In this document: positions 999-22,886 of the stretch, piece after piece | How positions within the stretch are numbered: position 1 is the stretch's first letter | Layout of the letters: every line of letters starts with the position of its first letter | IMG/VR virus record: IMGVR_UViG_3300021389_000162 | Location: 1 to 23,012 of that record | Length of the DNA stretch: 23,012 bases | Strand: one strand, 5' to 3' | Source of the DNA: a virus | Position numbers and translations under genes: made by a program | Notes under the pieces: model-generated | Seen by the model: the letters and a program-made list of their open reading frames with translations, nothing else | The model's database searches: none | What the model was told of the DNA's origin: nothing

Positions 999-3900
999 TT
1001 ATTTTGCTGAACTAAACTTATATGGATTTTCTGCCCAGGCCATGTAAATCAGATTAGTGGCTTGGTTTTGTCCAGTACCAGTTGTCCTAATTTGAAATCC
1101 GTTTTGGAAAAACTCTACACCTGTTGGAGTATCCTGAGCGTTTGCAGCAGAAGGAGTCAAGAATTTATTTCCTCTTCCATTTTGTCCAACATTACCAATA
1201 GCGTTGTCAATCATATACCAAATTACATTTGATGCTAAATTTGCTATCATAACAAGAGCAGGTTTGAAGCCAGTGTGTACAAAGGGCCCTATGGCGTTAG
1301 TGTTTCCACTATAGCGTCCAAATTTACTAAAGCCTGGAACTTCAGCCCAAATATAAGAAATAAATTCAGTACCAGCATTGTTATTATCACCGCCGGATGA
1401 CCATCCACCGAATACATTCGTGTCAATTGTATCCCAATATCCACTAGTGCTACCCTGTGTCGTACCTGTAGCGCTGTCCAGATAAATGTAATTATCTACG
1501 TTCGTTCCAGAGGATGTTTGTGCTTCATGCCAACAAACCCAACCACCAGTAGCGTCCACTTTTTTAGTTATAATAAACGCCGGCCTTACTCCTAGTCCAT
1601 GTGCTTTTGTTCGATTAGTTGTATTTCCTGTATATGATACAATAGAAAATCCAGCCTTAGTATTTGCAGTGAGTTTATTCACAGGATTATTTCCGGCAAG
1701 TGCGGCAGTAGATGCAACACCATCAATCATCACAGAACCAGAAGTTGGCACTGCACCAGCGGCAGCGACATTTGTTGCAGTCGGAGCCCCACCGGCTTTC
1801 CAGTTCCATGAAACATAATCTGATCCATTTGTATTATACCATTGAGCGGTTGAACCAGCAGCAGTCCATGTAAACCCATCACTATCAATTGATGAAAGTC
1901 TACCACCACCTGTGGTTGAATTGGCGGCCTCTCTTCTATCAGTTGCTAACCAACTGCCTGGGCCTCTAACTGAATCAAACAATGCATGATGATAGGCGGT
2001 ACTGTTAGATTTTGTCCACACTAAATCTGGCCGAAAACCGACTCCAGTAAACGCCCTATCGTTTGTATTACCGGCGCCAGACCAAGTTAATATACTGAAA
2101 TTTTTATCTGGGCCTTCATCCTTTGCAATATCCATATCTGCATCAGTGGTTAAATTTTTACTACATAGCGCAACAAATCCTGTTGGAGGCGTATAGTAAA
2201 AATCACCAACACCATTTTCATCAGCAGCATTTGCTGAACCAGTTGCTTTTGATCCATTAAAGGTAGAATCTTGTCCAAAGTTAAAATGATTTAGAGTGGT
2301 TGAAGAATTGCACATACCTATTACTATCAAATCATCAACACCATAAGTAGATGAGTCTACTGTTCCAATTTCATATGTACCGGCTGCTGGATTACCTGTA
2401 GTACCACTATCATTAGTGGATGGAGTTTTGAACCAAACCCCATTCCTAGAAAACCAAACTTTACGAGTTGCACCATCTACTGCAACACCAAGAACATTAC
2501 CTTGCGTAAGGTTAGCAACCCCCAATCCTCCAAGTCCGGCCGAAGAACCATAATCTGTTCCAGTTCCATTTACATAGACTGATCTATTATAAACAGTAAT
2601 AGTTCTACCACCACCAACATTATTAGAGGATGGGCCAGCCGTTACGGCACCAATTCCTATTGAATAGGAGGCGCCATTAATACCAGTATCATAATTAGTA
2701 AATTCAAAATAAATCTTTTTATCTTTTGGTATCTCCATTGTTGATGCCATTGGAAAGTGTGTTGAATTCCAATTATCTATTGGATCAAATTGGGTGTTTG
2801 CTTCTTTGAAGTTGCCTCTTGCGTTAGTTCCTCTTTTGCCTTTTGCTTCTAGAGATGCAAAGACATTTGTGGGTGTGGATGGTGATTGGTCTGAAGCAAC
2901 GAACACTGATGATGTGAAGTCATTCGTGTTACCACTTGTATCATCACCAAATGCAGTATCCGTTCCAAACTTTAATTGGAATCCGTTATTGCCATAAGTT
3001 CCAGAATAAGCCTTCGGCACCCATACACCATTAAAGTCCTCTGCAAAAGCAGTAGGTGAAAGCGCTTGTCCATCAATAACGTGCAAGTCTGCCATCAATC
3101 CATCAAAAGGACGATTCACACCTCCGTGTTTACCGATATATAACGTATTTCCATTTTTTGTCCATGGCCATACATCATTCTGTCCAATGGCACCTTGAGT
3201 TCCTAAAAGTCTACTACCATTTACATAAATCTGAACTTGTCTGGTAGTTGCATCACTAGAAGTAGTATCCCATCTTACCACAATATGATAAAATCCACTT
3301 GTGTCTCTGAAAGGTGCAGTTCCACTGAAAGGAGTATCGGAATACCTTCCCGAAGCAAGTGTATTAGTGCCAGTTTGAAACTGGATGTCCATGTGTCCAC
3401 TATTATCGCCGCCAGTGCCAGAATGGATAAGGTATTGATTGTCTGAAGTATCGGCATCAATTTTTCCTCTTTTTACCCACATAGACAATGTGCCTCTTGT
3501 TCCATCTGTGGCATTGGTAGACCACGTTTTGGACAAAGAAGTATTTGTTTCATTATTAAATTTCAAACTAAAGGGAATATTATATGGATATACTGGACGT
3601 AAAACTTGTAGACTAAATGCCCTAGAATTTGTTTGGTTTTCGTCATCTGTTGCAGTGATACTAAAATTTGTTGTAGTTGTATTTGCCGGCGCAGTTGGTG
3701 TTCCAGTAATTTGTCCATTAGCACTTGCTAAAGAGAGCCCAGCTGGGAGAGATCCAGTAGTTACTGAATATGCAAGAGTTCCACCATCTGGTTCTGCCGC
3801 AACAATAGTAATTGTTGGTATTGATTCCCCACCAACAACACTTCCTAAAGAACCAGCGGCAGTTGAGAACGCTGGTGTTCCATTGTATGAAATACCATTT

Positions 3901-4376
3901 GTTAGTCTTGCAGTAAGTCCGTTTGAATTTGTTATTATAATATCATAATCACCAGCGGCCTTTGCTGGTGTTGTAAATGTAATAGATGTTGTTGATACTA
4001 CTGTGATTGAAGATGCAGCTGTTCCACCAACTGTTACTGTTGCACCAGACTGAAAGTTTGAACCAGTAACAGTAATCGTTTCTCCACCAGCAGGATCAGC
4101 AGCAGTTGTAGAACCAGAGTATGCCAAACTTGTAATTGTTGGGGGGGAATCAATGGCCTGCCATGCACCACCAGCATATTGTTCTAGTCTTGCAAAATCT
4201 GTATTGTATCTTAATTGTCCGTTCGCTGCACTGCCCGGCCGTTGTGCAGTTGTACCTACTGGAACATGAACATATTGTACGCCTGGCAGTCCTAAACCAC
4301 CGGCAGTATCATCCAGTTTCGCTGTAGTAATTGCATCAGCACCAATTGCCGTTTGTTTAATTCTTGTTAATGGCAT
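999..4376 (-). CDS. Giant multidomain tail fibre/adhesin, 1125 aa, inserted between gp16 and gp17
   Basis: Probable virion adhesin. Residues 1-75 form a short attachment-like segment (MPLTRIKQTAIGADAITTAKL). An IPT/TIG-like Ig domain spans about 78-165 and includes GGETITVTGSNFQSGATVTV. A putative-Ig (He_PIG-like) domain spans about 167-258 and includes GSLPAGLSL and GTPTAP. A LamG/concanavalin-like lectin domain spans about 268-470, with SMWVKRG, YHIVVRWD, QIYVNG and MADLHVIDGQAL. A SPRY-like domain spans about 520-735 with VLGVAVDGATRKVWFSRNG. Three related C-terminal modules (about 757-860, 905-1010 and 1015-1125) share the pattern YTGN..R...GLGF.PDLVW.K and SDGF...W.WKAGG; these look like the phage DUF7483 type. 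It is a paralogue of the 1098-aa protein at 13623-16919. It starts 2 bp after the gp16 stop, with AAAGGA at the end of gp16 as ribosome site. Domain names are from pattern recognition, not a search. Confidence 0.85.
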   Translation of the reverse strand: MPLTRIKQTAIGADAITTAKLDDTAGGLGLPGVQYVHVPVGTTAQRPGSAANGQLRYNTDFARLEQYAGGAWQAIDSPPTITSLAYSGSTTAADPAGGETITVTGSNFQSGATVTVGGTAASSITVVSTTSITFTTPAKAAGDYDIIITNSNGLTARLTNGISYNGTPAFSTAAGSLGSVVGGESIPTITIVAAEPDGGTLAYSVTTGSLPAGLSLASANGQITGTPTAPANTTTTNFSITATDDENQTNSRAFSLQVLRPVYPYNIPFSLKFNNETNTSLSKTWSTNATDGTRGTLSMWVKRGKIDADTSDNQYLIHSGTGGDNSGHMDIQFQTGTNTLASGRYSDTPFSGTAPFRDTSGFYHIVVRWDTTSSDATTRQVQIYVNGSRLLGTQGAIGQNDVWPWTKNGNTLYIGKHGGVNRPFDGLMADLHVIDGQALSPTAFAEDFNGVWVPKAYSGTYGNNGFQLKFGTDTAFGDDTSGNTNDFTSSVFVASDQSPSTPTNVFASLEAKGKRGTNARGNFKEANTQFDPIDNWNSTHFPMASTMEIPKDKKIYFEFTNYDTGINGASYSIGIGAVTAGPSSNNVGGGRTITVYNRSVYVNGTGTDYGSSAGLGGLGVANLTQGNVLGVAVDGATRKVWFSRNGVWFKTPSTNDSGTTGNPAAGTYEIGTVDSSTYGVDDLIVIGMCNSSTTLNHFNFGQDSTFNGSKATGSANAADENGVGDFYYTPPTGFVALCSKNLTTDADMDIAKDEGPDKNFSILTWSGAGNTNDRAFTGVGFRPDLVWTKSNSTAYHHALFDSVRGPGSWLATDRREAANSTTGGGRLSSIDSDGFTWTAAGSTAQWYNTNGSDYVSWNWKAGGAPTATNVAAAGAVPTSGSVMIDGVASTAALAGNNPVNKLTANTKAGFSIVSYTGNTTNRTKAHGLGVRPAFIITKKVDATGGWVCWHEAQTSSGTNVDNYIYLDSATGTTQGSTSGYWDTIDTNVFGGWSSGGDNNNAGTEFISYIWAEVPGFSKFGRYSGNTNAIGPFVHTGFKPALVMIANLASNVIWYMIDNAIGNVGQNGRGNKFLTPSAANAQDTPTGVEFFQNGFQIRTTGTGQNQATNLIYMAWAENPYKFSSAK
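3961..3988. repeat. 28-bp identity between the two giant fibres (copy 1)
   Basis: These 28 bases, within the IPT/TIG-coding part of the 1125-aa fibre, are identical to 16510-16537 in the 1098-aa fibre. The surrounding sequence is also similar. It shows that the two genes share a fairly recent common segment or exchange DNA. Confidence 0.85.
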
Positions 4377-4378
4377 AT

Positions 4379-4795
4379 CTATTTTCCTTTTAACATTTTT
4401 TGCAGTTCGGCAGTACTTCCTACAAACAATGCATTCGTTACATTTTGTGGTGCAGAGTTAGGAACTTCTTTAAGTTTCTTCATCTTAGTCTGCAAGTCTC
4501 CAAGTTTTTCTGTTACTTCTGCAACCTGTTTTATTAAGTTTCCGGCCACCTCATAACTACGAGGATGTTCTGATTCTCTTGCAAGGTCTAGGATACCATC
4601 AATCGCATCCTGTCCTCTCTCAATTAGATTATAAAAGTTTTCTCTCTGATATTTATAATCATTATCTATATCTACATCAGTACCAGTTGTTGTCGGAACA
4701 AGAACTGGTTTAGTTGGTGTTACATCTTTAGTTGTTGTTTCCACCACATCTGTAATACCAAGAACATTATCTAGAATATCTGTCTGATTAGACAT
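4379..4795 (-). CDS. 16: Terminase small subunit gp16
   Basis: This is the small terminase, which forms a ring that recognises DNA and regulates gp17 ATPase during packaging. The 138-aa protein keeps the layout of T4 gp16 (164 aa). It has an acidic N-terminal arm, then a segment DIDNDYKYQRENF (about residues 43-55) matching T4 DLEDDYGVVRRN. A helical core with SEHPRSYEVAGNLIKQVAE (about 74-92) follows, matching T4 ADSPRHVEVFATLMGQM, and then a coiled-coil-like stretch with LQTKMKKLKEV. The start is taken at 4795 (MSNQTDIL). A longer frame to 4831 would overlap the upstream gene and adds MMLNGQLNHRYE, which looks like read-through of the neighbour's end. The gene is flanked upstream by a chaperone-like gene and downstream, after 2 bp, by the 1125-aa fibre, unlike T4, where 15 and 17 are its neighbours. 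Confidence 0.93.
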   Translation of the reverse strand: MSNQTDILDNVLGITDVVETTTKDVTPTKPVLVPTTTGTDVDIDNDYKYQRENFYNLIERGQDAIDGILDLARESEHPRSYEVAGNLIKQVAEVTEKLGDLQTKMKKLKEVPNSAPQNVTNALFVGSTAELQKMLKGK

Positions 4796-4802
4796 TTCAT
4801 AC

Positions 4803-5192
4803 CTATGGTTTAGTTGGCCATTCAACATCATCTAGAGAACTGTAGTCCTCTGTAATGTCACGAAGGGCTTGTCTGTAAGCAGTTTGTGCATCTGTCATAG
4901 TCAAGTCTGAACTTGCCCACCAATCAGTTGCAGCAATCAATCTGTCTCGTTCTGCACGAAGTTCTTTCATTGGTTCTGCCGCAGTAAGTTCATTCATCTT
5001 TTCTTCTACTGCATCCCATGTCAAACCCTCAGGCCAGTCGGTAGAGTTGTCTGACTCGATTGCAGTGTTATTTCCAGTTGTTCCGATAACTTTTCTGAAC
5101 ATTGATGCAAACTCATCAGCGTTTGTTGGGTTTCCTCTGAGAACCCATTCTGTAATTCCTAATTCTTGTAGTGCGTCTGATACGTTTGCCAT
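4803..5192 (-). CDS. Tail-assembly-chaperone-like protein, copy 3 (Phage_tail_APC type), 129 aa
   Basis: The C-terminal half carries the pattern of the phage tail assembly chaperone-like family (Pfam Phage_tail_APC by recognition): LRAERDRLIAATDWWAS at about residues 78-94, AYRQALRDI at 105-113 and DDVEWPTKP at the end. The N-terminal part (SDALQELGITEWVLRG and a D/E/N-rich linker) differs from the two other copies in the window (18347-18700 and 20706-21083). The other copies sit between two fibre genes; this one sits between a C1q-like gene and gp16. Such small proteins usually accompany tail fibre genes, and a role in fibre folding or attachment is an inference. The ribosome site GGATAA overlaps the stop codon of the gene before it. 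It lies within a 19-bp sequence repeated at 6662-6680. Confidence 0.8.
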   Translation of the reverse strand: MANVSDALQELGITEWVLRGNPTNADEFASMFRKVIGTTGNNTAIESDNSTDWPEGLTWDAVEEKMNELTAAEPMKELRAERDRLIAATDWWASSDLTMTDAQTAYRQALRDITEDYSSLDDVEWPTKP

Positions 5193-11322: not shown

Positions 11323-12915
11323 TTAGAATGTGCCGCCGTCAATACTCGTTGCAAAAGAAAGTGTATCAGAAGATGCTGTGTAGAACAGAACTCCATCATT
11401 AGAACCACCACCATCAAGTGCAGACAAAGTATCGGCAGAGTTCGCTACAAGGACAGAACCTTTTGCTATACTGGAAAGTCCAGTACCACCAGAAGTCGCT
11501 GCAATTGCAGTGCCATTCCAAACACCAGTTGAGATAGTGCCTAAAGTAGTAATAGATGACTGGCCAACATAAGTTGATGCAATTGTAAGTGCATTTGCAG
11601 ATACAGTAATCTTGTCTGCTGTTCCTACGACATCAATTGTGTTACCAGTTTTAGTTAAACCAGCGCCAGCAGAAATTTGTCCGGCTCCAGAGAATTGTTC
11701 AAAGGTAATGTTAGTTGTACCAAGTGTTGGTGTTCCGTTTGTAGTCAAAACATAACCATTGTCTGCGTTTGCAGTACCTTCTTCAACGAAAGTAAATGCA
11801 CCACCTGTAAGTTCATTGGCAGCATCTGCATCTGGTGTTCTGGTAAGGACGAATGCGGCAGAACCAGAACCTACAGTTGTCACTTTATAGAAACCGTTTT
11901 GTGTTTGTGTTGTTTGATCTTTAACAAGAACTCTGTCGTTTACAGAAAGACTTACACCATCAACTGAAATTGCACCGTTTGAAGATGCAGTGATTGTTCC
12001 GTTACCATTGTTATAAGAACCAGCAAGGTTTGCTGTGGTTGCAACTTTTACAGATGCTTTAACATCAAGTCCATTTGCAACTGCATCAACATATGATTTG
12101 TTTACAAGTGAGTCATCGCCAAAGCCTGCTCTTCCCTCATAACCAGAAGGAACTGTTACCGAACCTGTTCCATTTGGTGATAGGACTAGGTTGCCATTAG
12201 AGTTAGTTGTTGAGATTGTGTTTGCATCAACTTGAATATTGTCAATCTTTGCAATTGTTACTGGTGTCGAGTTACCAACTGTTCCACCTTCAATTACTGG
12301 AGCAGTTAGTGTCTTGTTTGTAAATGTCTGTGAACCTGCTAGGGTTGCAACAGTTGAATCAATTGCATATGTGATTGCGTTATTTGATACGGTTGTGTCA
12401 ATACCTGTTCCACCAGTAAATGTAAGTGTCTCACTGGTATTGAATGTATCATTAGAACCACTATCGGCTGCAAGTGTGAATGAACTTGAAATTGCACCGA
12501 ATGATAATGCACCAGAACCATTTGTTTTTAGAAATTCATTTGCATTTCCATCAGCAGTCGGTAGTGTAAATGTTACGTTACCACCAAGTGCATTGGGTGC
12601 CTTTAGTCCAACAAAGTGTGTACCGTTGTTAGTACCTTCATTGAGTTTAATTTGTCCACCTGTCGTTGCGTGATTACCAACAAGCAGTTCATCAACTGCT
12701 TTGTTACTGTCAACAAGGACAGCAGAACTAGCAGTTAGTGTACCAGCAGTATGGTCAATCTTGTCATTAAAGGATTTACCCCCAATAACCTCTACCGTAG
12801 ACCCATCTCCGATATATAATACATCGTTGCCGTGGGTATAGGCGAGTTCACCATCGGCAAGAGCTGATGGGGCGGTACTACCAGTAGACCTTTTAATTTG
12901 TAATGTTAGTGCCAT
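11323..12915 (-). CDS. Tail fibre protein with Mtd-like N-terminus, 530 aa
   Basis: Residues 3-46 (LTLQIKRSTGSTAPSALADG, ELAYTHGNDVLYIGDGST) are a clear match to the Mtd N-terminal style used by many phage fibres to sit on the virion. The shaft is repetitive and beta-rich (LAGSQTFTNKTLTAPVIEGG, NGNLVLSPNGTGSVTVPSG, YVDAVANGLDVKASVKVATT). A domain at about 278-412 (VDGVSLSVNDRVLVKDQTTQ, QNGFYKVTTVGSG, FTFVEEGTANADNGYVLTTN) is recurrent in marine T4-like fibres. The C-terminus ends in DGGTF, like SGGSF of the 95-aa neighbour. It probably assembles with the 546-aa protein in the same transcript. There are no catalytic residues to point to. Confidence 0.82.
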   Translation of the reverse strand: MALTLQIKRSTGSTAPSALADGELAYTHGNDVLYIGDGSTVEVIGGKSFNDKIDHTAGTLTASSAVLVDSNKAVDELLVGNHATTGGQIKLNEGTNNGTHFVGLKAPNALGGNVTFTLPTADGNANEFLKTNGSGALSFGAISSSFTLAADSGSNDTFNTSETLTFTGGTGIDTTVSNNAITYAIDSTVATLAGSQTFTNKTLTAPVIEGGTVGNSTPVTIAKIDNIQVDANTISTTNSNGNLVLSPNGTGSVTVPSGYEGRAGFGDDSLVNKSYVDAVANGLDVKASVKVATTANLAGSYNNGNGTITASSNGAISVDGVSLSVNDRVLVKDQTTQTQNGFYKVTTVGSGSAAFVLTRTPDADAANELTGGAFTFVEEGTANADNGYVLTTNGTPTLGTTNITFEQFSGAGQISAGAGLTKTGNTIDVVGTADKITVSANALTIASTYVGQSSITTLGTISTGVWNGTAIAATSGGTGLSSIAKGSVLVANSADTLSALDGGGSNDGVLFYTASSDTLSFATSIDGGTF

Positions 12916-13622: not shown

Positions 13623-16600
13623 TTAAACTGCTTCGCCATACTTAAGCGGATTCTCTGCAAATGCCATGTAAATATATATTGCGCCGCTTTCATTCAGACC
13701 ACCAGAACCAGTATTAATAACCTTAAATCCATTTGACTGCCAGTGAACCGTTGTAGTTGTTGCAGCACTTGCTGGGCCATCACCAGCTGCGCTGTTAGCT
13801 AACAATAGGTATTTGTTTGGATTATTTATTGGGTCTCTAGCATTATCCAGTATAAACCAACTACTACCATCACTGGCACCACTACCTAATTTTGTAATCA
13901 TCAACCACGCAGGCTTGAAGCCAGATTGAACTGCCGGCCCATCGGCACTATTGTTGCCAATATAGAATCCAATGTCACTATATCCGGCCACACTATGCCA
14001 TGCATATCCTATCATATCAAGATTATTACCAGTGACATAGCTACTTAACTGGATTGTTGAGTTATTTGTGTTAGGATCTTGAAACCCACCTGAGAAGTAA
14101 GTACTGCTAGCATTGTTTTGACCAATTGTCGTATTCAAATATAAAACATATCCTACTGAAGTGTTCTTATGAAAACCTTCCCAATTTCTTGTTTGTGACA
14201 AACTTTTGGTCATAAAAAATTCTGGGGTTTCAGTTAAACCATGAGCAATAGTTCTATCAGCATTGTCGCCTGTCCATCGTATTATACTAAATCCTGCTTT
14301 TGTATTTGCACTTAACTCTTTTACTGCCAGAGTTCCAGCAAGTGCATCTGTCTTATTTGCACCGTCAATCTTTACTGAACCAGCAGTTGGTACTGCACCA
14401 GCGGCAGCAACATTTGTTGCAGTAGTAGCTCCACCAGCCTTCCAACACCATGCAACGTGCTGTCTGGTATCTTTATTAACACCATCCACACCAGTTATAG
14501 TAAATCCGTCACTATCAAAACTTGTAAATGCACTATAATCATTCGCTGCGGCATTACTATTAGTTAGAAGTCCAGCAAGTGATCCAGTTGGGCCTCTAAC
14601 AGAATCGTAAAGTTGATGGTTATAAGTACCAACTCTATCTTTAATCCAAACTAAATCTGGCTGGAAGCCAAGCCCAGTAATACTTCTTGCAGTACCGTTG
14701 CCTGTGTATGTAACACACTTCATGTTATCATCTGGGCGAACATCAGCACGAATATCAATGTCTGTATCGTCTGCAATATTTTCAGCACAAACTGCCAAGA
14801 AGCCTGAAGGAACAGGATAAGTAAATAGTCCTCTGCCATTACCATCTGTATTTGTACCAGCAGACACAAGACCATTATATGTTGGATTTTGCCCAAAGTT
14901 GACTACTAGTTCAGTGTTCGCTGTTGAAGTTGCAAAATAAGGAATAAGCTTGTTTCCAGTTGCACTGGAGCCAATAAAGGAAGAAAGATCATATGCACTA
15001 GTTCCTGCCGCTACTTGTGAAATTGTGAGAGTCGATGCACTTGCAGCATTGGCGGTATACCACTGTCCATTTACTGACCAATGTACTTTAAAATTATCTG
15101 CGTCATAGGCAACACCAATAACAGCATTGCTACTGTAAGCCACTCCACCATCTATATTAAGGTCTGCTAGTTCAGAATATATATTTCCACCGACTTGGAA
15201 AGCAATAGCGCCGGATGTATAAGCAGCCCTAGTATCACCAGTTCTCCGTAGCCCAATGTAAGGAGCTATAGCGTTAATAACTTTGCATTCCCAATACCAT
15301 TTTCCCGAAGGTAGTGACTGTGTTCCTGTTACCGTTCCATTTGCGCCGAGTGCCGCATATGTGCCATTCTGGATCGTTACTGTACCTCTTGTATCATTAG
15401 AATTAAGGTGTGCAAAATTTGTCGTGGGAGAATCAAGTCTTACATTATCTGGATGCATAGATTGTGGAGTAAAATCATTATTATTACCAGATGTATCATT
15501 ACCAATATCTGAATCATCAGCAAAAGCTAATCTAAATCCATTACTGCCATATGTTCCAGTGTAAGTTTGTGGTGTCCAAACGCCATTATATGAGTTTGCA
15601 AAATCTGTTGGCGCTTTTGCTTGTCCGTCAATAAAGTGGATATCTGCTATATTACCATCATAATATTCACTACTATCGCCCTTTTGTCCAATAAAATGTG
15701 CCGATGCAGCATTTACCTCTAATTGGTCATTTTGGGATGGATATGTAGAAACAGAAAAAGATGTAATCTGTTCGCCATTTACATACATTTTTGCTCGATT
15801 TGAAGCAGTTGCCTGAGTTGTGTCCATTACAAAAACAATATGATACCAAGCTGATGGGTCTCTAAATAAACGATTTGTTTGTAAATTTATACTATTTGAA
15901 GTTCCACCAGTATATTCTCCATATACTTGAAGTTCATTATTAGTTCCGAAGGTAATACGAATTCGATTTGAACTAGATGATTGTGCAGCAAATATTGATC
16001 GAAATGTTTCAATATTTGATCTCTTAACCCAACCACTCCAAGTCCAAGTTCTGCGATTTGATGCAGAGGGCGTTCTATTCAAATACTGTGCTTCGTTGTC
16101 ATTGAGCATTAAACTTCTTGTGATTGGAACATTATATATTTTTCTAAGAACAATTAGATTAAATGCCCGAGCGTTTGTTTGACTTTCATCGTCAGTTGCA
16201 GTTACAGTAAAGTTAAATGTTGTATTTGCACTAATAGTTGGATTTGGTGTTCCAGTAAGTTGTCCGTTTGCAGAACCCAAAGATACACCAGAAGGTAATG
16301 CACCAGAAGTTATAGAAAACGCAAGCGTTCCACTATCTGGTTCTGCGGCAACAATAGTAATTGTTGACATTGCTTCGCTATTGAATAAAGTACCAACATT
16401 ACCAGCAGCAGTTGTAAATGCTGGAGCTCCGTTGTAAGAAATTCCATTAGTTAGAGTTGCAGCAAGTCCGTTTGTATTTGTTACTACAATATCATAGTCA
16501 CCAGCAGTCTTTGCTGGTGTTGTAAATGTAATAGATGATGAACTGACAATAGACACAGAAGGTGCAGTAGTTCCGCCGACAGTCACAGTTGCGCCGGCCT

Positions 16601-16919
16601 TAAAGTTAGAACCTGTAAGAGTGATTGTTTCACCACCAGCAGGGTCAACGGCAGTCTCTGAACCAGCGTAAGCACGAGATGCAATAATTGGTGGACTGTC
16701 GATCGCAGCCCATGAGTTAGTGTTTGTGTTCCACTGTTCTAGTGTACCAATTGTGGTATTAAATCTTAGATACCCAGCAGCAGGACTGCCAGGACGTTCA
16801 GCAGTTGTACCATGAGGCACACGAACATACTGCCCATCAAAATCTGGATTGTGTCCAATTTTTGGTGAGGTTACAGCATCGTCTTGAATACCGTCTGTTT
16901 TAATTCTAGAAATTGCCAT
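13623..16919 (-). CDS. Giant multidomain tail fibre/adhesin, 1098 aa
   Basis: This is the paralogue of the 1125-aa fibre, with the same domain order. There is a short front segment (MAISRIKTDGIQDDAVTSPK). An IPT/TIG-like domain spans about 78-163 (GGETITLTGSNFKAGATVTV). A He_PIG-like Ig domain spans about 166-258. A LamG-like lectin domain spans about 265-480 (WTWSGWVKR, WYHIVFVMDTT, KMYVNGEQI, IADIHFIDGQA). A SPRY-like domain follows (GKWYWECKVI, GVAYDADNFKVHWSVNGQWY), and then three C-terminal DUF7483-like modules (LGFQPDLVWIKDR, HGLTETPEFFMTK, SGFKPAWLMITK; end YMAFAENPLKY). Likely a carbohydrate-binding host-recognition fibre. An AATAAATA late box and AGGA ribosome site precede it. The gene order gives no hint that it is attached to the long tail fibre of T4. 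Confidence 0.85.
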   Translation of the reverse strand: MAISRIKTDGIQDDAVTSPKIGHNPDFDGQYVRVPHGTTAERPGSPAAGYLRFNTTIGTLEQWNTNTNSWAAIDSPPIIASRAYAGSETAVDPAGGETITLTGSNFKAGATVTVGGTTAPSVSIVSSSSITFTTPAKTAGDYDIVVTNTNGLAATLTNGISYNGAPAFTTAAGNVGTLFNSEAMSTITIVAAEPDSGTLAFSITSGALPSGVSLGSANGQLTGTPNPTISANTTFNFTVTATDDESQTNARAFNLIVLRKIYNVPITRSLMLNDNEAQYLNRTPSASNRRTWTWSGWVKRSNIETFRSIFAAQSSSSNRIRITFGTNNELQVYGEYTGGTSNSINLQTNRLFRDPSAWYHIVFVMDTTQATASNRAKMYVNGEQITSFSVSTYPSQNDQLEVNAASAHFIGQKGDSSEYYDGNIADIHFIDGQAKAPTDFANSYNGVWTPQTYTGTYGSNGFRLAFADDSDIGNDTSGNNNDFTPQSMHPDNVRLDSPTTNFAHLNSNDTRGTVTIQNGTYAALGANGTVTGTQSLPSGKWYWECKVINAIAPYIGLRRTGDTRAAYTSGAIAFQVGGNIYSELADLNIDGGVAYSSNAVIGVAYDADNFKVHWSVNGQWYTANAASASTLTISQVAAGTSAYDLSSFIGSSATGNKLIPYFATSTANTELVVNFGQNPTYNGLVSAGTNTDGNGRGLFTYPVPSGFLAVCAENIADDTDIDIRADVRPDDNMKCVTYTGNGTARSITGLGFQPDLVWIKDRVGTYNHQLYDSVRGPTGSLAGLLTNSNAAANDYSAFTSFDSDGFTITGVDGVNKDTRQHVAWCWKAGGATTATNVAAAGAVPTAGSVKIDGANKTDALAGTLAVKELSANTKAGFSIIRWTGDNADRTIAHGLTETPEFFMTKSLSQTRNWEGFHKNTSVGYVLYLNTTIGQNNASSTYFSGGFQDPNTNNSTIQLSSYVTGNNLDMIGYAWHSVAGYSDIGFYIGNNSADGPAVQSGFKPAWLMITKLGSGASDGSSWFILDNARDPINNPNKYLLLANSAAGDGPASAATTTTVHWQSNGFKVINTGSGGLNESGAIYIYMAFAENPLKYGEAV
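16510..16537. repeat. 28-bp identity between the two giant fibres (copy 2)
   Basis: Identical to 3961-3988, at the matching place in the IPT/TIG-coding part of the 1098-aa fibre. Both copies are in the same orientation, so recombination between them would delete the 12.5 kb that includes gp13-gp16. Confidence 0.85.
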
Positions 16920-16941: not shown

Positions 16942-16949
16942 TATTTATT
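16942..16949 (-). promoter_or_regulatory. Late promoter box AATAAATA before the 1098-aa fibre
   Basis: The minus strand reads AATAAATA, which fits the NATAAATA form described for cyanophage late promoters, one base off T4. It ends 23 bp before the ATG at 16919, and its first two bases belong to the TAA stop of the 80-aa gene. Confidence 0.55.
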
Positions 16950-17190
16950 AGTGACCGTCTGCTGCTAGTTCTGCGGCAATCACTGCATCATAGTCTGAGG
17001 CAGAACCTACAGTTAAAGTTCCTGCCGTAATTTGTTTTTGAATCTCTGCATATACGGTATTGGCAGTATTTAAGGGAACGTGACAGGGAATACCATCAAC
17101 AGTCGCCTTGATACCATTTGCATCTGCACCAGAAATAATATTTCCATCATCATCTCTAGGTACTAAGTAATATGCGTTTGTAATAATCAT
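16948..17190 (-). CDS. Small protein of unknown function, 80 aa
   Basis: The sequence reads MIITNAYYLVPRDDDGNIIS, then NGIKATVDGIPCHVPLNTAN, TVYAEIQKQITAGTLTVGSA and an acidic, Ala-rich end. The pattern of a short beta hairpin, then VP.N..N..Y.EI..(Q)..G, resembles small phage proteins such as XkdW-type or fibre-associated accessory proteins, but I cannot name the family. It sits between a fibre tip gene and the 1098-aa fibre; ribosome site AAGGAT. A fibre-assembly accessory role is a guess from position. Confidence 0.6.
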   Translation of the reverse strand: MIITNAYYLVPRDDDGNIISGADANGIKATVDGIPCHVPLNTANTVYAEIQKQITAGTLTVGSASDYDAVIAAELAADGH

Positions 17191-17204: not shown

Positions 17205-18347
17205 TTATAATTCTGATGTTGCAATTACATGAGCGGCAAGGGCAATATCACCAGCCGCAACAGAAAAACCATTAATACCTCGTTCACCTAATTCATATGT
17301 TCCAGTTATGCTTACATTTGTATCGTGGGCGAAATCACCGCCAACATGACTAGCCCTATCTACAGTTCCATTGAGACTATAGTATGTAATAATTGGTGTG
17401 TCTCTCATTGGTACTGGATAGATTACTGTAAAGTTATGGTGGTTAGTGGTTGCAGTACCCCCATCATTTCTACATTGCGCTGCACCATTATCAGAACCAG
17501 TACTACCAATGGCAATACCATGACGATAGGTGTGGAAATAATAGCGCTGACAATCTCTAAGGTCTTCTGCATATGTTCTATGCTCAAATGGAGATGGGAT
17601 TGTGCCCCTTTCTAACTGTACGCCAGTAATTTCAAAGGTAGCGTTCAGAGTATTTGAGAAAGTTGTAGAACTTACTCCATTAGGAAGTATTAGGCCAGCG
17701 CCAGATTCATTCGCCCAAGTGTTATTCGTGTAGGAAGCGGTTTGTCCATCTAACATTATGTGAATTGCCCATCCAGTAGTATTATCGGCGTCACTATCTA
17801 ATGCAACATTATATGCTGGAATAGGAATACTTACTCTTTGCCATGTATTGGCTGCGTTAATAGTAAATGGTATAACTATTTCTTGTGGAGTTGCGTGTTG
17901 ATATGCAAGGATATATAATCCATATGTAGTTGCTATTGATGCCTTTACATAAAAACTTAAAACTGATTGAGACATATTAGAAGTTCCTACACCAAGTCTA
18001 TGTGTATCACGCTTTTCGATATAATATCCTATACCAACTGATGTGCTAGCTGGTACGGAGCCTCCTTCTGCTGTTGTACATTTAGCTTGTAGTGCATGAA
18101 TAAGTCCGGCATCACCTGTTCCAGATGCATCAACTCTTGTGTGACTGAATTGTGCATTTGCCCAAGTACCACCTCTACGATGAGAAAATCTATCTACTGT
18201 AATAACACCACCAGTATTTGCCAAACCTGTAGTGGTGTGAGTTGTGGCTTTTCTTTGAGAGACTTGCATGGCTCCATTATAGACAAGATTCCGTCTACTA
18301 TCTAAAGAAACAGATTGTCCTCTATTATTTACTTTAATCAATGCCAT
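17205..18347 (-). CDS. Fibre tip with carbohydrate-binding-like domain (unit B, third gene), 380 aa
   Basis: The start region RRNLVYNGAMQVSQR (18-32) and ITVDRFSHRRGG (49-60) is a widespread motif of phage and prophage fibre domains that resemble carbohydrate-binding modules. The sandwich closes with EITGVQLERGTIPSPFEHRT (239-258) and YAEDLRDCQRYYF (259-271), after which comes a separate beta-rich C-terminal head of about 110 residues. I set the start at 18347, where TAATG joins it to the stop of the chaperone-like gene. The longer frame to 18365 (MAGETI) only reads back into that gene's C-terminus. The same coupling is seen at 20706. Sugar binding is inferred from fold resemblance. Confidence 0.78.
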   Translation of the reverse strand: MALIKVNNRGQSVSLDSRRNLVYNGAMQVSQRKATTHTTTGLANTGGVITVDRFSHRRGGTWANAQFSHTRVDASGTGDAGLIHALQAKCTTAEGGSVPASTSVGIGYYIEKRDTHRLGVGTSNMSQSVLSFYVKASIATTYGLYILAYQHATPQEIVIPFTINAANTWQRVSIPIPAYNVALDSDADNTTGWAIHIMLDGQTASYTNNTWANESGAGLILPNGVSSTTFSNTLNATFEITGVQLERGTIPSPFEHRTYAEDLRDCQRYYFHTYRHGIAIGSTGSDNGAAQCRNDGGTATTNHHNFTVIYPVPMRDTPIITYYSLNGTVDRASHVGGDFAHDTNVSITGTYELGERGINGFSVAAGDIALAAHVIATSEL

Positions 18348-18364
18348 TATGGTTTCTCCGGCCA
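18345..18364. repeat. 20-bp direct repeat at a chaperone/fibre-tip junction (copy 1)
   Basis: The 20 bases here are identical to 20704-20723. They contain the last codons of the chaperone-like gene (WPEKP), its TAA stop and the overlapping ATG of the next gene. The identity marks the boundary of the duplicated units. Confidence 0.85.
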
Positions 18365-18700
18365 TGTAACATCATCAAGTGATGTTGCATCATCTGTTAT
18401 ATCTCTAAGTGCTTGTCTGTATGTTTTCCAATCTGCATCATTTGAAAGAGTAACATCTCTGTTCTGTGTCCAATCTGTTTCTGCGAGTTTTCTGTTTCTT
18501 TCTTCTCTCACTTCATCCAACTTTTCTGCAGCGTATATCTCATTTCTTTTTGTTTCAATTGCAGAGGATGTTGGTTCAGTCAAACTATCATTCAACCACT
18601 CAACAGTATAATCTGTCATATTTCCGCTTGGAATAACTCTAAAATCTACATTAACATTTGCACCATCTACAAGTGCCATAATTGCTTTTGCTACACTCAT
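18347..18700 (-). CDS. Tail-assembly-chaperone-like protein, copy 2 (unit B), 117 aa
   Basis: This copy has a variable N-terminal part (MSVAKAIMALVDGANVNVDF, TDYTVEWLNDSLTEPTSSAI), a short predicted helix (YAAEKLDEVREERNRKLAET), and the conserved end TDWTQN, then WKTYRQALRDITDDATSLDD and VTWPEKP. The end is nearly the same as in copy 1 (20706-21083) and similar to copy 3 (4803-5192). It is coupled to both neighbours: ATGA overlap with the fibre before it and TAATG with the fibre tip after it. Such tight coupling suggests co-translation with fibre partners. The family call (Phage_tail_APC) is by recognition; a chaperone role in this phage is inferred. Confidence 0.82.
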   Translation of the reverse strand: MSVAKAIMALVDGANVNVDFRVIPSGNMTDYTVEWLNDSLTEPTSSAIETKRNEIYAAEKLDEVREERNRKLAETDWTQNRDVTLSNDADWKTYRQALRDITDDATSLDDVTWPEKP

Positions 18701-19707
18701 GACCCTACCACTCCATAAATTGTCACTTCACCAGTTGTATTCAACAAACTACTCGCCTCGCCGTAATTTGGTGCGTTCGTTTCTTGAAAAAATCTGATAC
18801 CCCTTGCGTTTACAGCGGCAGCATTTGTTGCTACTCCTTTTGGCATTTCCCAATATAAAACTGGATTATACATAAAATGTTCAGCCCAATACATAAATCC
18901 AGTACCAGAATATGCATTCTTCATCCATAGTCTACCTTCAAAATAAGAGGATGCATCAGTAACGCTGGTATTTGCACCTAGAAAGGCGTATGTACTTGCG
19001 GCGGCCCGTACAGAACCAGTAGTTCCAGCACCAAGCGTCCAATACTCGATTTCTGTTGTAAAGGTTGCTGACGCCCAAGATGAAAGACTACTAGAGTAAA
19101 TACCATTAGATTCAACATCGGCACCAGAAGTTTCCAATGCAAAACTTAATGTATTTACATTTGCGACAGTCGATGTAATTTTGTAGTCAATCACATAATC
19201 ATTATAGGTTGATGTAAAACAATTTGGAAGATCAAAACTTCCAGATGTATCTGAAGAAGTCCTTGTTTTAGTTGCAACTTGAATTAGATTGCCATTTGGA
19301 AGAGATGTCAGTGATGCACCAGAAACCGCTGGCAATGCACCAGTAAGTTTCGATGATGACATTCCAACAACCTTTGCATCTGTCACTGCACTGTTAGCAA
19401 GTTGACTTGTGTTTACACTTCCGTCACTTGGTGTTCCAATATTAAGAACATCTCCAAGTGCCATGATAAAGTCGATGTTATCAGAACTTGTTAGAGCAGA
19501 AGCGAATGTGATTGTTGAACCAGATACAGTGAATGAATCTTGTGGGGCCTGCATAACACCATTGAGCGAAACCAGCAAATGATTTGCACTAGCAGGCGAA
19601 TATGCACCACCGTTTAACAGTAGATTATAAGTCGCAGTGGCAGATGTTGTAATAGCATCTAACTTATGATATGCACCTGTTACTGGCTGTTGTCCTATGA
19701 ATGGCAT
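18697..19707 (-). CDS. Modular fibre protein (unit B, first gene), 336 aa
   Basis: The protein starts MPFIGQQPVTGAYHKLDAIT, followed by the attachment-type module (YNLLLNGGAYSPASANHLLV, SLNGVMQAPQDSFTVSGSTI) also present at 21095 and twice at 22272. A linker follows (TSQLANSAVTDAKVVGMSSS, KLTGALPAVSGASLTSLP) that is almost the same as in 21095-21913. Residues from about 145 form a different beta-rich head (FDLPNCFTSTYNDYVIDYKI, MYWAEHFMYNPVLYWEMP, end EVTIYGVVGS), where GEVTIYGV resembles the last strand of lectin-like or C1q-type heads. A CTAAATA box and AGGAAA ribosome site precede it. The pattern of conserved front and exchanged head is typical of receptor-binding fibres. Confidence 0.78.
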   Translation of the reverse strand: MPFIGQQPVTGAYHKLDAITTSATATYNLLLNGGAYSPASANHLLVSLNGVMQAPQDSFTVSGSTITFASALTSSDNIDFIMALGDVLNIGTPSDGSVNTSQLANSAVTDAKVVGMSSSKLTGALPAVSGASLTSLPNGNLIQVATKTRTSSDTSGSFDLPNCFTSTYNDYVIDYKITSTVANVNTLSFALETSGADVESNGIYSSSLSSWASATFTTEIEYWTLGAGTTGSVRAAASTYAFLGANTSVTDASSYFEGRLWMKNAYSGTGFMYWAEHFMYNPVLYWEMPKGVATNAAAVNARGIRFFQETNAPNYGEASSLLNTTGEVTIYGVVGS

Positions 19708-19734
19708 ATTATTGTTTCCTAATCTCGTTCATAC

Positions 19735-19741
19735 TATTTAG
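19735..19741 (-). promoter_or_regulatory. Candidate late promoter box CTAAATA before unit B
   Basis: The minus strand reads CTAAATA, a form reported for late promoters of marine cyanophage S-PM2. It ends 28 bp before the ATG at 19707, and the TAA stop of the 51-aa gene lies within it. It is a weaker match to T4 than the other boxes. Confidence 0.4.
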
Positions 19742-19893
19742 TCTGCATCTTCCCATTGTGTGAACCCACAACTTGTGCATCCAGTTTCACCAGATGATTT
19801 TACAGTCCAACTTTCATCACCATCAGTAATAGTTTCGTTTGTTACTGTGACTTCTTCTACGTTATCGCAATTTTTACATTTATACTCAGCCAT
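19738..19893 (-). CDS. Small zinc-ribbon-like protein, 51 aa
   Basis: This short gene reads MAEYKCKNCDNVEEVTVTNE, then TITDGDESWTVKSSGETGCT and SCGFTQWEDAD. It has two CxxC pairs (Cys6/Cys9 and Cys39/Cys42) 29 residues apart, the usual layout of a zinc ribbon. A strong ribosome site AGGAGA lies at the end of the preceding gene, and the start comes 3 bp after that gene's stop. It is the only non-fibre-looking gene between the two duplicated fibre units. Possible roles are nucleic-acid binding, transcription adaptor or a structural zinc knuckle; none can be shown. The clean start, ribosome site and paired cysteines support a real gene. Confidence 0.8.
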   Translation of the reverse strand: MAEYKCKNCDNVEEVTVTNETITDGDESWTVKSSGETGCTSCGFTQWEDAD

Positions 19894-19896
19894 CTA

Positions 19897-20706
19897 TTAA
19901 TCTCCTGTTGGCATTCTCAATCCATAGACTGAAATGTAACTTCCCTTTGCAAAATTAAAATTTGAACCAGATACATTTTGATTAATTGCAAACTGAAATC
20001 CACCAAATGAATCTGATGCATTTCCTGTGGCAGTTGGATCGAAAGTTTGATTCTGACGAGCAGTTCCATTCGTACCCTGATATACACTCGATGTCTGATT
20101 GTAGGTTTGAGCTATAGTATGATAATACGTTCTATAACCAATGTTAGTAACTTCTGATGCCACAGTTGTGTCATTTGCAAAAGACCTATGGTCAAAACCA
20201 TCCATGTTTGCAATAGCCTCTGGATGAAACCCTCTTGCAGTAAGTTCTCCCTGAACTCCAGCACGATAACCGGCAGTGGCTGAACCCCTTGCCCAAATAT
20301 TATTTTGAAGCTTCAAGGTTGTACTAGCATTTCTTGTCAAACTAGTGGCACCACTTGTCGTGTCTTGTACTGTTGCCCCACCGAACCAACTACCAACAGC
20401 TGTTGATGTTTGATCCATTCTTATAGTATCAAATAAAAGATTCGCCGTGGTTGATCCAGTATGAGTAAAATGATAATACATTTTATAACATTGATATCTA
20501 GTTTTTATAGTTGACAAGTTGATATTGATAGTGGCATAACTCGAACTCCCAGATACTCCGTTTTGAAAATTAGTGTCGCCATCTGATTTACAAACTCTTG
20601 TTTCGATATGTTCCCAACCAGAAAGTCCAACACCCTGAGTTGCAACATCTAAATCAGATGCTACAACATTTTGTCTCATTCCACTTTGTATTATACTTAA
20701 AGGCAT
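19897..20706 (-). CDS. Fibre tip protein (unit A, third gene), 269 aa
   Basis: The gene is coupled by TAATG to the chaperone-like gene, so the start is placed at 20706 (MPLSIIQSGMRQNVVASDLD); a longer frame to 20724 reads back into the neighbour. The protein is beta-rich, with Ser/Thr/Asn-rich strands (SSYATININLSTIKTRYQCY, KMYYHFTHTG, FGGFQFAINQNVSGSNFNF) and a last strand SYISVYGLRMPTGD. SYISVYGL resembles the closing strand of many phage lectin-like heads. It lacks the carbohydrate-binding-like front of its positional counterpart in unit B. Receptor binding is inferred from context; the fold was not identified. Confidence 0.72.
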   Translation of the reverse strand: MPLSIIQSGMRQNVVASDLDVATQGVGLSGWEHIETRVCKSDGDTNFQNGVSGSSSYATININLSTIKTRYQCYKMYYHFTHTGSTTANLLFDTIRMDQTSTAVGSWFGGATVQDTTSGATSLTRNASTTLKLQNNIWARGSATAGYRAGVQGELTARGFHPEAIANMDGFDHRSFANDTTVASEVTNIGYRTYYHTIAQTYNQTSSVYQGTNGTARQNQTFDPTATGNASDSFGGFQFAINQNVSGSNFNFAKGSYISVYGLRMPTGD

Positions 20707-20723
20707 TATGGTTTCTCCGGCCA
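20704..20723. repeat. 20-bp direct repeat at a chaperone/fibre-tip junction (copy 2)
   Basis: Identical to 18345-18364. It covers the end of the chaperone-like gene and the TAATG start of the following fibre tip gene, in the same frame relation as in copy 1. Confidence 0.85.
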
Positions 20724-21083
20724 AGTGACATCATCAAGTGATGTAGCACTATCTGTAATGTCTCTTAATGCTTGACGATATGTTTTCCATGCAGCAGGAA
20801 TGTTTGTTCCCAACTCTTTATGCATAGTGACAACCCAATCTGTTTCTGCGAGTTTAGTGTTTCTTACTGCACGAAGAGCAGTAATGTTTTGTTCGGCAGT
20901 AATCGTTGAATCGTTGATTCCATCAATTGCAGATTGTGATGGTTGACTTACAGTTTTGTGTTCCCACTTTTCAATGGACTCCACACCATTTTCTGACATG
21001 ATTAAAATTGTTCCTGTCTCTGGATGAAAATCATCATTGGTTAAGGAAGGTTTTAATTTCATTATTTTACTTGCTAAATTCAT
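20706..21083 (-). CDS. Tail-assembly-chaperone-like protein, copy 1 (unit A), 125 aa
   Basis: The N-terminal half (MNLASKIMKLKPSLTNDDFH, ILIMSENGVESIEKWEHKTV) is unlike that of copy 2. The C-terminal half matches it: ALRAVRNTKLAETDWVVTMH, WKTYRQALRDITDSATSLDD, VTWPEKP. The conserved end is therefore the working family domain and the front is exchangeable, perhaps specific to the partner fibre (inference). The ribosome site is AAGGAAAG; the gene begins 11 bp after the fibre at 21095. Confidence 0.82.
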   Translation of the reverse strand: MNLASKIMKLKPSLTNDDFHPETGTILIMSENGVESIEKWEHKTVSQPSQSAIDGINDSTITAEQNITALRAVRNTKLAETDWVVTMHKELGTNIPAAWKTYRQALRDITDSATSLDDVTWPEKP

Positions 21084-21094
21084 TCTATCTTTCC

Positions 21095-21913
21095 TTAATC
21101 AGCTATTCTAACAATTACAGCAGTACCATAAGTACTAGTACCAGTTGCGCCAGAGTTAGTATATAATGCAAACTGAAAGTAATCTGAAGAACCATTCATA
21201 GACACTATACTGACAACAGTAGGAAACCCTAGATTAGAACCACCAGCATAATTTATAATATCACTTTGTGACGCCCAGTTACTACTGTTTTTGTAAATGT
21301 ATGATGTTGGAGTATATCCACCAGTTGTAGTTATACTACATCCTGCTTGGAATACAACAAGATAATCTCCAGCAACACTTGGTATAATTTGAGAAGTATT
21401 TGCAATAGTAAAATTATTTGATTGTGCTTGTAATGTTGGAGTAATTGCTGTTACAGTATTGTGAGCAATATTAGGCCCAGAAAAAGTAACTCTTGCATAG
21501 TCCTTAGTAGGGGATGAAATACCTGTCAATGCGGCACCACTAATTGCTGGTAATGCACCAGTAAGTTTTGACGCCGCCATTCCAGCAATCTTTGCATCTG
21601 TTACTGCACTTGAAGCAATCTTTGCAGAACTAATAGTTCCATCAGCAGGAACGACTGAGTTCTCTTCTAGTCCTTTGAATACGACATAGAAGTTTAATCC
21701 AGTTGCAGGCGGTGCTGACATAGCAAGAGTTGTTCCAGAAACGGTATAAGCATCAGTAGGTTCTTGGCGAACATTTCCTACGAATACTTCAATATCGTTT
21801 GCAGAAGCAACTGCACTATTTAATGTGAAATCTGTTGTACTACCATTTGCAGTAAAATCTTGTTTAGTTCTTGAAGAGAAACTAGCATTTGGTGTACTTC
21901 CAAGATATGGCAT
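21095..21913 (-). CDS. Modular fibre protein (unit A, first gene), 272 aa
   Basis: The front MPYLGSTPNASFSSRTKQDF is followed by an attachment-type module (FTLNSAVASANDIEVFVGNV, RQEPTDAYTVSGTTLAM) and a shaft linker (SAKIASSAVTDAKIAGMAAS, KLTGALPAISGAALTG). The linker closely matches 18697-19707. The head from about residue 135 is different and C1q-like in appearance: KDYARVTFSGPNI, SQIIPSVAGDYLVVFQAGC, YFQFALYTNSG and the end GTAVIVRIAD. The ribosome site is AGGGAG. It is the first gene of unit A, followed by a chaperone-like gene and a tip gene. Likely role: receptor-binding fibre (inference). Confidence 0.8.
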   Translation of the reverse strand: MPYLGSTPNASFSSRTKQDFTANGSTTDFTLNSAVASANDIEVFVGNVRQEPTDAYTVSGTTLAMSAPPATGLNFYVVFKGLEENSVVPADGTISSAKIASSAVTDAKIAGMAASKLTGALPAISGAALTGISSPTKDYARVTFSGPNIAHNTVTAITPTLQAQSNNFTIANTSQIIPSVAGDYLVVFQAGCSITTTGGYTPTSYIYKNSSNWASQSDIINYAGGSNLGFPTVVSIVSMNGSSDYFQFALYTNSGATGTSTYGTAVIVRIAD

Positions 21914-21924
21914 AGATTACTCCC

Positions 21925-22257
21925 TTATGCTTTTTCCATGAAACCAAGAACGACATCTATTGCCGAACCAGTTCCAGCTTGAACTTTGAGAATATCTGTT
22001 GCTTCAAGTATATACTTTTGTCCAGCGAGTGTTTCTAATGTCGTGTTTGCTGGGATACTGACATCTTCCAACAACTGAAATGTTGTACTTGCAGAAGTGT
22101 CTGTAAATTGTACTTTGACTGTAACTGCATTAGTTGTCTTGTTTGCAATCGCCAGTCCTAAAATAACTGTTTGTGTTGCGGCAGGAGCAGTGTATAAAGT
22201 TTGATAAGAACTATTACTTACGTTTGCCAATGCAGCATTCTTAAATGTGTTCGCCAT
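21925..22257 (-). CDS. Small virion structural protein, 110 aa
   Basis: The sequence MANTFKNAALANVSNSSYQT, VILGLAIANKTTNAVTVKVQ, FTDTSASTTFQLLEDVSIPA and KYILEATDILKVQAGTGSAI is a single beta-sandwich-like domain seen as a stand-alone small protein in many marine T4-like phages, annotated there as virion or hypothetical protein. The SD AGGA lies 9 bp upstream. It sits in the same transcript as the 204-aa gene before it and unit A after it. A decoration or connector role is possible but not shown. Confidence 0.7.
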   Translation of the reverse strand: MANTFKNAALANVSNSSYQTLYTAPAATQTVILGLAIANKTTNAVTVKVQFTDTSASTTFQLLEDVSIPANTTLETLAGQKYILEATDILKVQAGTGSAIDVVLGFMEKA

Positions 22258-22271
22258 GTTTTTTTCCTATA

Positions 22272-22886
22272 TTATCCTAAAGCAATTGCCAGTGCCGTTG
22301 CGTCATCTTCTGCTTGGTCAAATACCCCTTGCTGAACCTTTGCAACAGACACAGTTCCATCTGCAATAGTATTTAGTGTGTTCACCCCATTCAATTGAAT
22401 ACATTGAATGTTATTTGTTCCACTTGGTGGAGCAGATGTAAATGTTAATACGTCACCATTGACGGTATACGCATATGAAGAACCATATCTTTGATATACA
22501 TTATCTACAAACACAGCAAAGTTTTGAGCGGCATTTGCAGCAGGAGTTCTTGTCAATGTAAATGTAGTATCAGAACCATCACCATTAAACTCATCTATGT
22601 GTGTTGATGAGGTAGCAGGAGTTGCTGTTAGAACTTCATTACCAAGATAGACAATAGAAACTCTACCACCATTATCTGGTGCTTGTGAAAATGTAATCTT
22701 TGGTTGTCCAGAAACAAGACTAGTTGAATACGAATATTCGGGTTCTTGCACGACACCATCAAGTACGACCAACAACGAAGTTGGTACTGCCATATGGTCA
22801 AGATTGTAAGATGTGGTTGTACCATCACCCGCCAAAACCTGTCTGTCAAATACACCGTAACTTGGTGATGCGCCAATATATGCCAT
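22272..22886 (-). CDS. Structural protein with two attachment-type modules, 204 aa
   Basis: The protein starts MAYIGASPSYGVFDRQVLAG and has two successive copies of the same beta module. Module 1 (about residues 19-82) has GDGTTTSYNL, SLLVVLDGVVQEPEYSY, KITFSQAPDNGGRVSIVYLG. Module 2 (about 104-170) has GDGSDTTFTL, FAVFVDNVYQRYGSSYAY, VLTFTSAPPSGTNNIQCIQL. One copy of this module stands at the front of the fibres at 18697 and 21095. The end DDATALAIALG resembles AIAMGIALG of the 546-aa fibre. There is no variable head, so it may be a shared adaptor onto which the fibres dock (inference). A CATAAATA late box and AAAGGGA ribosome site precede it. Confidence 0.78.
   Translation of the reverse strand: MAYIGASPSYGVFDRQVLAGDGTTTSYNLDHMAVPTSLLVVLDGVVQEPEYSYSTSLVSGQPKITFSQAPDNGGRVSIVYLGNEVLTATPATSSTHIDEFNGDGSDTTFTLTRTPAANAAQNFAVFVDNVYQRYGSSYAYTVNGDVLTFTSAPPSGTNNIQCIQLNGVNTLNTIADGTVSVAKVQQGVFDQAEDDATALAIALG

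Follow-up and report, generated by a model that had tools for sequence, protein, structure and literature searches.

Parts of the architecture considered here are known from several phages. In Methylophilales phage Melnitz and its strains (Kyanoviridae), the tail-associated region is reported to vary between strains (PMC9004378), and in pelagimyophages and cyanomyophages the host recognition cluster is a hypervariable tail-fibre island adjoining the neck protein gp14, described for pelagimyophages as lying between VrlC and gp14 (PMC7029224). Mu Tfa and Pam3 gp25 are small fibre-adjacent proteins with a variable fibre-binding N-terminus and a conserved helical C-terminus (PMC9608196). In Alteromonas phages V22 and A5, a fibre and its cognate chaperone form a module common to distant phages (PMC10579305), and the dual receptor-binding proteins of Klebsiella phages combine an N-terminal anchor with an exchangeable C-terminal specificity part, sometimes with two such proteins per phage (PMC8262889).

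We analysed a stretch of 23,012 bases (the window), a viral record from a marine phage related to the OM43 methylophage Melnitz. The neck proteins of the two are 66% identical, the fibre region of the window precedes the neck genes, and the gene order matches that of Melnitz over the fibre region, the neck genes and the terminase genes. Melnitz has the same locus, with two docks and the flanking genes of the window; its heads and tips differ from those of the window. For this phage, the available text of PMC9004378 did not yield a description of docks, cassettes, junction or exchange between docks. The window fibre region also corresponds to the pelagimyophage host recognition cluster, which the available text of PMC7029224 presents as a variable island, with no mention of two fixed docks or of movable head–chaperone cassettes.

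The window chaperones are like Mu Tfa and Pam3 gp25 in being small, in following the fibre directly and in having a variable N-terminus and a helical C-terminus, but their C-terminus is of the PF16778 type, and there are two docks rather than the one fibre–chaperone pair of those systems in the part of PMC9608196 that was available. The fibre–chaperone modules of the Alteromonas phages are shared between distant phages as here; each has one fibre, and neither movement between two docks nor a separately exchanged adhesin is mentioned in the accessible text (PMC10579305). The Klebsiella proteins, as far as the available account goes, are depolymerase spikes, the second of which docks on the first, and they carry a C-terminal intramolecular chaperone, whereas here the chaperone is a separate gene (PMC8262889). 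On the best reading of these sources, the window system is a variant of known modular phage adhesion, in which two docks with movable head–chaperone cassettes appear to be new as judged from the open-licence PMC literature.

On the minus strand, the genes run from a 204-aa anchor-like gene through x110, fibre A, chaperone A, tip A and a 51-aa gene to fibre B, chaperone B, tip B, an 80-aa gene, a 1098-aa adhesin, g111 and g95. The initial annotation had described units A and B with the same order of fibre, small chaperone and downstream adhesin, and both the order and the coordinates were confirmed (Table 1); beyond these three genes, each unit has one more small gene (51 and 80 aa). The 204-aa gene matches the tail fiber protein family phrog_18673 (7e-19) and Melnitz gene 173 (71%), and the 51-aa gene has a Zn-ribbon match with E = 0.01, below the Pfam cut-off. 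PADLOC gave no match for six proteins of the locus.

Table 1. Features of the two-dock fibre locus and of a third chaperone gene (window coordinates).
Feature	Position	Strand	Description
204-aa gene	22272..22886	-	Conserved flanking marker (first of two), upstream of docks; two anchor-like beta domains
x110 (110 aa)	21925..22257	-	Conserved positional marker directly upstream of dock A; 90% to Melnitz 174
Fibre A	21095..21913	-	Anchor ~21626-21913, linker ~21509-21625, head ~21098-21508
Chaperone A (125 aa)	20706..21083	-	Variable N-terminus ~20910-21083; conserved PF16778 C-terminus ~20709-20909
Junction A	20704..20723	-	TGGCCGGAGAAACCATAATG; GGAG 20718-20715, 8 nt before tip A ATG (20706-20704)
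Tip A (269 aa)	19897..20706	-	Orphan putative adhesin
51-aa gene	19738..19893	-	Between units, after tip A; CxxC-containing; weak Zn-ribbon match
Fibre B	18697..19707	-	Anchor ~19393-19707, linker ~19288-19392, head ~18700-19287
Chaperone B (117 aa)	18347..18700	-	N-terminal helix + beta-hairpin ~18551-18700; PF16778 helical C-terminus ~18350-18550
Junction B	18345..18364	-	Identical 20-mer TGGCCGGAGAAACCATAATG; GGAG 18359-18356, tip B ATG 18347-18345
Tip B (380 aa)	17205..18347	-	CBM4/22-like jelly roll (residues 18-248); poorly predicted C-terminus
80-aa gene	16948..17190	-	After tip B; s80-type small gene
chC	4803..5192	-	Third PF16778 chaperone, outside both docks; 47.2 bits; 77% to Melnitz gene 196

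The reading that we favour, with a probability of about 75%, is that the locus combines two fixed docks, interchangeable cassettes of fibre head plus Tfa-like chaperone, and separately exchanged adhesins. The anchor domains of A and B would be old paralogues, each staying in its dock. Behind each dock would lie an exchangeable cassette of linker, fibre head and Tfa-type chaperone, the variable N-terminus of the chaperone being matched to its head and the PF16778 C-terminus being conserved. The adhesin, alone or together with a small partner gene, would form another exchangeable cassette joined at the junction, which closes the chaperone gene and would supply the ribosome-binding site and the adhesin start. 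Through homologous recombination in the conserved linker and in the conserved chaperone end plus junction, the intervening parts would be replaced by those of other phages, also across docks.

By analogy with Mu Tfa and Pam3 gp25, each chaperone would fold and trimerise its own head, the variable N-terminus binding the head and the C-terminus trimerising. Both fibres would presumably be carried on the virion, the tips may bind glycans, and the purpose would probably be a change of host range. This last effect is one that we infer; the four Melnitz strains had an identical host range on a small panel (available text of PMC9004378).

Both chaperones match PF16778 (Phage_tail_APC; curated cut-off 26.6 bits), A with 54.3 bits (1.2e-14) and B with 62.9 bits (2.5e-17). 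Their matches to Caudo_TAP (PF02413, the lambda/Mu type of Tfa) reach 16.4 and 14.8 bits, below the 22.1-bit Pfam cut-off, and span the last about 30 residues only. Each gene lies directly downstream of its fibre and encodes a variable N-terminus and a conserved helical C-terminus; by sequence and position, A and B are Tfa-like proteins and not PF02413 members. The initial annotation had the two N-termini differing completely; they proved to be homologous though diverged (score 47, 0/2000 shuffles as good), and BLASTP aligns the two proteins over their whole length at 44%.

The structure model of chaperone B (pLDDT 82) has a helix and beta-hairpin at the N-terminus and a helical C-terminus. 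Its top fold match, among common helical matches, was 2KZ6 (Z 5.9, 74 residues aligned, 34% identity), an uncharacterised PF16778-like Chromobacterium protein and the sole PDB sequence match of the chaperone. PBSX XkdW (2HG7) aligns to the N-terminal 60 residues of the model with Z 3.2, and 4 of 53 chaperones match the Pfam family XkdW; an XkdW-like N-terminus in A and B is plausible. Mu Tfa is absent from the fold-match list, an absence that excludes nothing.

In 63 of 127 distinct dock slots, the fibre is not followed directly by a recognised PF16778 gene, so the content of the cassettes is broader than the window suggests. Other docks have different small genes of 85-127 aa in the chaperone slot (L148 4718-6326, L149 4718-6468, L305 6988-7290, L160 2167-2424 and others), for which no Pfam match was found. 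In some, what looks like the same N-terminus continues into a different C-terminus that ends in YPK[EP] or FPKP, and the sequences suggest alternative chaperone types in other docks. The third window chaperone, chC, also passes the PF16778 cut-off and has an N-terminus unrelated to those of A and B. Its gene overlaps by 29 nt the gene at 4379-4831, whose match to PF11053, a T4-type DNA packaging family, lies at the cut-off; this neighbourhood is conserved in Melnitz.

We correlated pairwise similarities over 46 non-redundant units, with 2000 permutations. Head similarity followed that of the chaperone N-terminus (r = 0.675, 0/2000 permutations as high) and much less that of the chaperone C-terminus (r = 0.22); it did not follow the anchor (r = 0.06) or the tip (r = 0.01). 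In a control limited to the eight loci with both units, the correlation was 0.58 for the own unit and -0.05 for the other unit. Similar heads always had similar chaperone N-termini; the converse fails. This comparative evidence supports the suggestion, made in the initial annotation, that each fibre has a dedicated assembly partner.

Head and chaperone might also travel together by physical linkage only, with a generalist chaperone and no functional pairing. Since there is no conserved recombination block between head and chaperone, linkage alone could give part of the pairing signal. Such a chaperone would also suit the breadth of the chaperone families, which exceeds that of the head families (9-26 pairs of units are similar in the chaperone N-terminus only, none in the head only), and the one chaperone found behind two unrelated heads: the dock-A chaperone N-terminus of L010/L349 is 95% like that of L095/L298, yet the head is unrelated, and DNA identity starts 15 nt before the fibre end. 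Linkage by itself fits poorly with the lower correlation at the C-terminus and with the concentration of variation in the N-terminus, the fibre-binding part in Mu Tfa and Pam3 gp25 according to the available text of PMC9608196, and we consider it rather unlikely as the whole explanation.

Both fibres match phrog_18673 over the N-terminal anchor (A, 7.2e-11; B, 2.1e-33). Anchor A is 92% like that of Melnitz dock A, and residues 1-155 of fibre B match Melnitz gene 179 at 71%. The two anchors are homologous to each other (score 112, 0/2000 shuffles as good) and, at about 29%, far more diverged than the linkers behind them. Searching IMG/VR with x110 and both anchors as queries recovered the order x110, dock A, dock B in about 40 distinct loci. 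In a tree built from 39 anchors of each dock, in which the B anchors were chosen partly by likeness to anchor B of the window and the A anchors by position after x110 plus a minimum anchor match, a single branch splits A from B (SH-aLRT 100), with 1 dock change against 26 in shuffles. Read from this tree, the duplication of the anchors is old and each dock has been inherited in place. The retention of both docks in about 40 distinct loci favours two co-existing fibres, which bears on the question of whether they are alternative or cooperating.

The remaining parts of the units behave differently from the anchors. The dock-A sequence of the window, together with the sequence upstream of its anchor, matches the dock-A side of L016 up to 21620 and then dock B of L016 from 21627 to 20691, placing the crossover in fibre A at 21620-21627. 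The shared cassette (linker, head, chaperone and junction) is 91.6% identical over 937 bp without gaps; head A is 85% like the L016 dock-B fibre, and the chaperone A N-terminus is 92% like that of the chaperone behind that head. Including this one, five cassette families were found in both docks, the others being L002A/L001B (98.1% over 980 bp), L095A/L298B (= L176B; 97.4% over 957 bp), L001A/L005B (about 96% over 0.9-1.0 kb) and L078A/L006B (75.8% over 1050 bp). Most of these matches have their start in the linker or a little ahead of it, and their end 15-20 nt after the chaperone stop; those of L001A/L005B and L078A/L006B extend further into the tip gene. In a tree of chaperone C-termini the docks are intermixed (11 changes, at least 4 of them forced by starred branches). 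Head B is 42% like that of L133.

The cultured strains Melnitz and Melnitz-3 are near-identical up to the dock-A linker and then different until the start of dock B; they agree at 98.6% through the dock-B fibre and chaperone and diverge again just after the junction. Overall, cassettes recurring across docks and phages support the earlier idea of exchanged receptor-binding parts.

The initial annotation had proposed a tandem duplication of the three-gene unit. Taken as a recent event in this lineage, after which heads and tips diverged, it would explain the shared gene order and two blocks of high similarity in the window, namely the linker repeat (104 nt, 78%; 19297-19400 and 21515-21618) and the chaperone C-terminus with the junction (117 nt, 79%; 18321-18437 and 20680-20796). 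The region has no longer direct repeats than these two, and the likeness that had been reported for linkers and chaperone C-termini is real and exceeds a general family level in the linker and junction blocks. However, a recent event does not agree with anchors so much more diverged than linkers and chaperone ends and falling into two clades across 39 loci, nor with a dock-A cassette whose closest relative lies in dock B of another phage. Common ancestry is detectable neither for the heads of the two units, which are as unlike as had been noted, nor for the tips; in both comparisons the similarity does not rise above that of shuffled sequences, about 0.11 of which score equally well. We regard a recent duplication of the unit as very improbable. 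Duplication holds for the docks, that is the anchors, and not for head, chaperone and tip, which are exchanged cassettes. Because the counterpart of the dock-A cassette sits in L016 dock B, the likeness between the window units owes much to exchange, and exchange at linker and junction leaves linkers and chaperone ends alike, and anchors, heads and tips unlike.

Cross-dock cassettes could instead be metagenome assembly chimeras made at the conserved linker and junction, since the breakpoints fall within conserved blocks and most cases come from metagenome assemblies, the loci being mostly IMG/VR contigs. We hold this to be very improbable: the window and L016 cassettes are 8% different, and their joint has 12 identical bases, too few for the usual k-mer join; the pattern is seen in five cassette families, and breaks at these landmarks also occur in the cultured Melnitz strains. 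A programmed switch of heads by a Mu-like inversion, a shufflon or a diversity-generating retroelement is barely credible, even though variable heads that come with matched assembly proteins recall the outcome of the Mu G segment: both units have the same orientation, none of the inverted repeats found is longer than 22 nt (77%), and annotation of the window proteins, in a genome fragment with some ORFs left unannotated, revealed neither a recombinase nor a reverse transcriptase. An invertible segment or shufflon was rejected, as there are no suitable repeats and no oppositely oriented alternatives; a diversity-generating element is not claimed.

For the exchange of cassettes between fixed docks, the distal crossover point lies at the junction, where chaperone stop and tip start overlap as TAATG. 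The shared 20-bp sequence noticed at first sight is exact in the two units. GGAG precedes an ATG by 8 nt in 52 of the 165 distinct chaperone ends, and this spacing is kept both in the TAATG form (31; the chaperone stops at TAA) and in the GAATG form (9; one residue longer), although CCG makes up only 6% of the proline codons of the window. The simplest reading is that GGAG is a Shine–Dalgarno sequence, a ribosome-binding site for the tip gene embedded in the chaperone gene; the tip would then go on being translated regardless of the cassette in place. The tip genes begin at the ATG of TAATG (20706 and 18347) and not at in-frame upstream starts. Judged from the breakpoints, the junction doubles as a crossover site; selection for that role goes beyond the breakpoint data. 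We tentatively consider, as possible but doubtful, that orthogonal docks and a common plug standard (the linker block, and the chaperone end with its ribosome-binding site) were selected for re-plugging head–chaperone cassettes into either dock and for independent change of the adhesin, and would thus be an evolved interface rather than incidental homology.

According to the comparisons at the junction, the tips are exchanged separately from the head–chaperone cassettes. Tip A has no Pfam or PHROG match and no relative among the fetched loci. Tip B matches the tail fiber family phrog_4492 (1.1e-33) and is 32% like the dock-A tip of Melnitz and 58% like that of L355; an s80-type small gene follows 76 of 121 distinct genes of its family. 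Neither Pfam, its carbohydrate-binding families included (E up to 1), nor the PDB (nothing of weight) gave a sequence match for tip B. Its predicted fold resembles a CBM4/22 carbohydrate-binding module (4BJ0, CBM4-2; Z 12.8, rmsd 3.0, 163 aligned), a shared fold which in itself demonstrates no function; the jelly roll also matches the phage tailspike 5W6H and the fibre 7XYC, and the last third of the model is poorly predicted.

The locus resembles a natural plug-in system by which the phage would change its binding targets. Natural exchange provides many paired examples of head and chaperone, as well as the same pair on two different anchors, and such pairs turn the specificity of PF16778 chaperones into a testable question; members of this family occurred in hundreds of marine viral contigs in this analysis. 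The linker-to-junction rule offers a way to find head–chaperone pairs in uncultured phages. Cassette exchange would account for strains of one phage that differ just at the fibre locus, and changes in the host-recognition part could be read from metagenomes.

Several further observations concern the surroundings of the docks and related loci. Many relatives (L148 741-1917 and similar loci) have second x110-like and anchor-like copies upstream of the docks; in some, a tip-B-type adhesin and s80 come next, possibly a further dock. Pelagibacter phage HTVC026P (L399 3001-4929), a SAR11 phage outside the myophage group of the window, has a fibre with a dock-B-like anchor (52%), a PF16778-like gene annotated as hypothetical and a putative tail fiber, so that the architecture is wider than that group. 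The window protein encoded at 11323-12915 is fibre-like and matches Mtd_N weakly (E 0.0026, below the cut-off). At 999-4376 (1125 aa) and 13623-16919 (1098 aa), the window encodes two giant adhesin-like proteins that are paralogous over their full length (42% over 1163 columns) and share TIG, He_PIG and DUF7483 domains; one adjoins the docks and the other the terminase genes.
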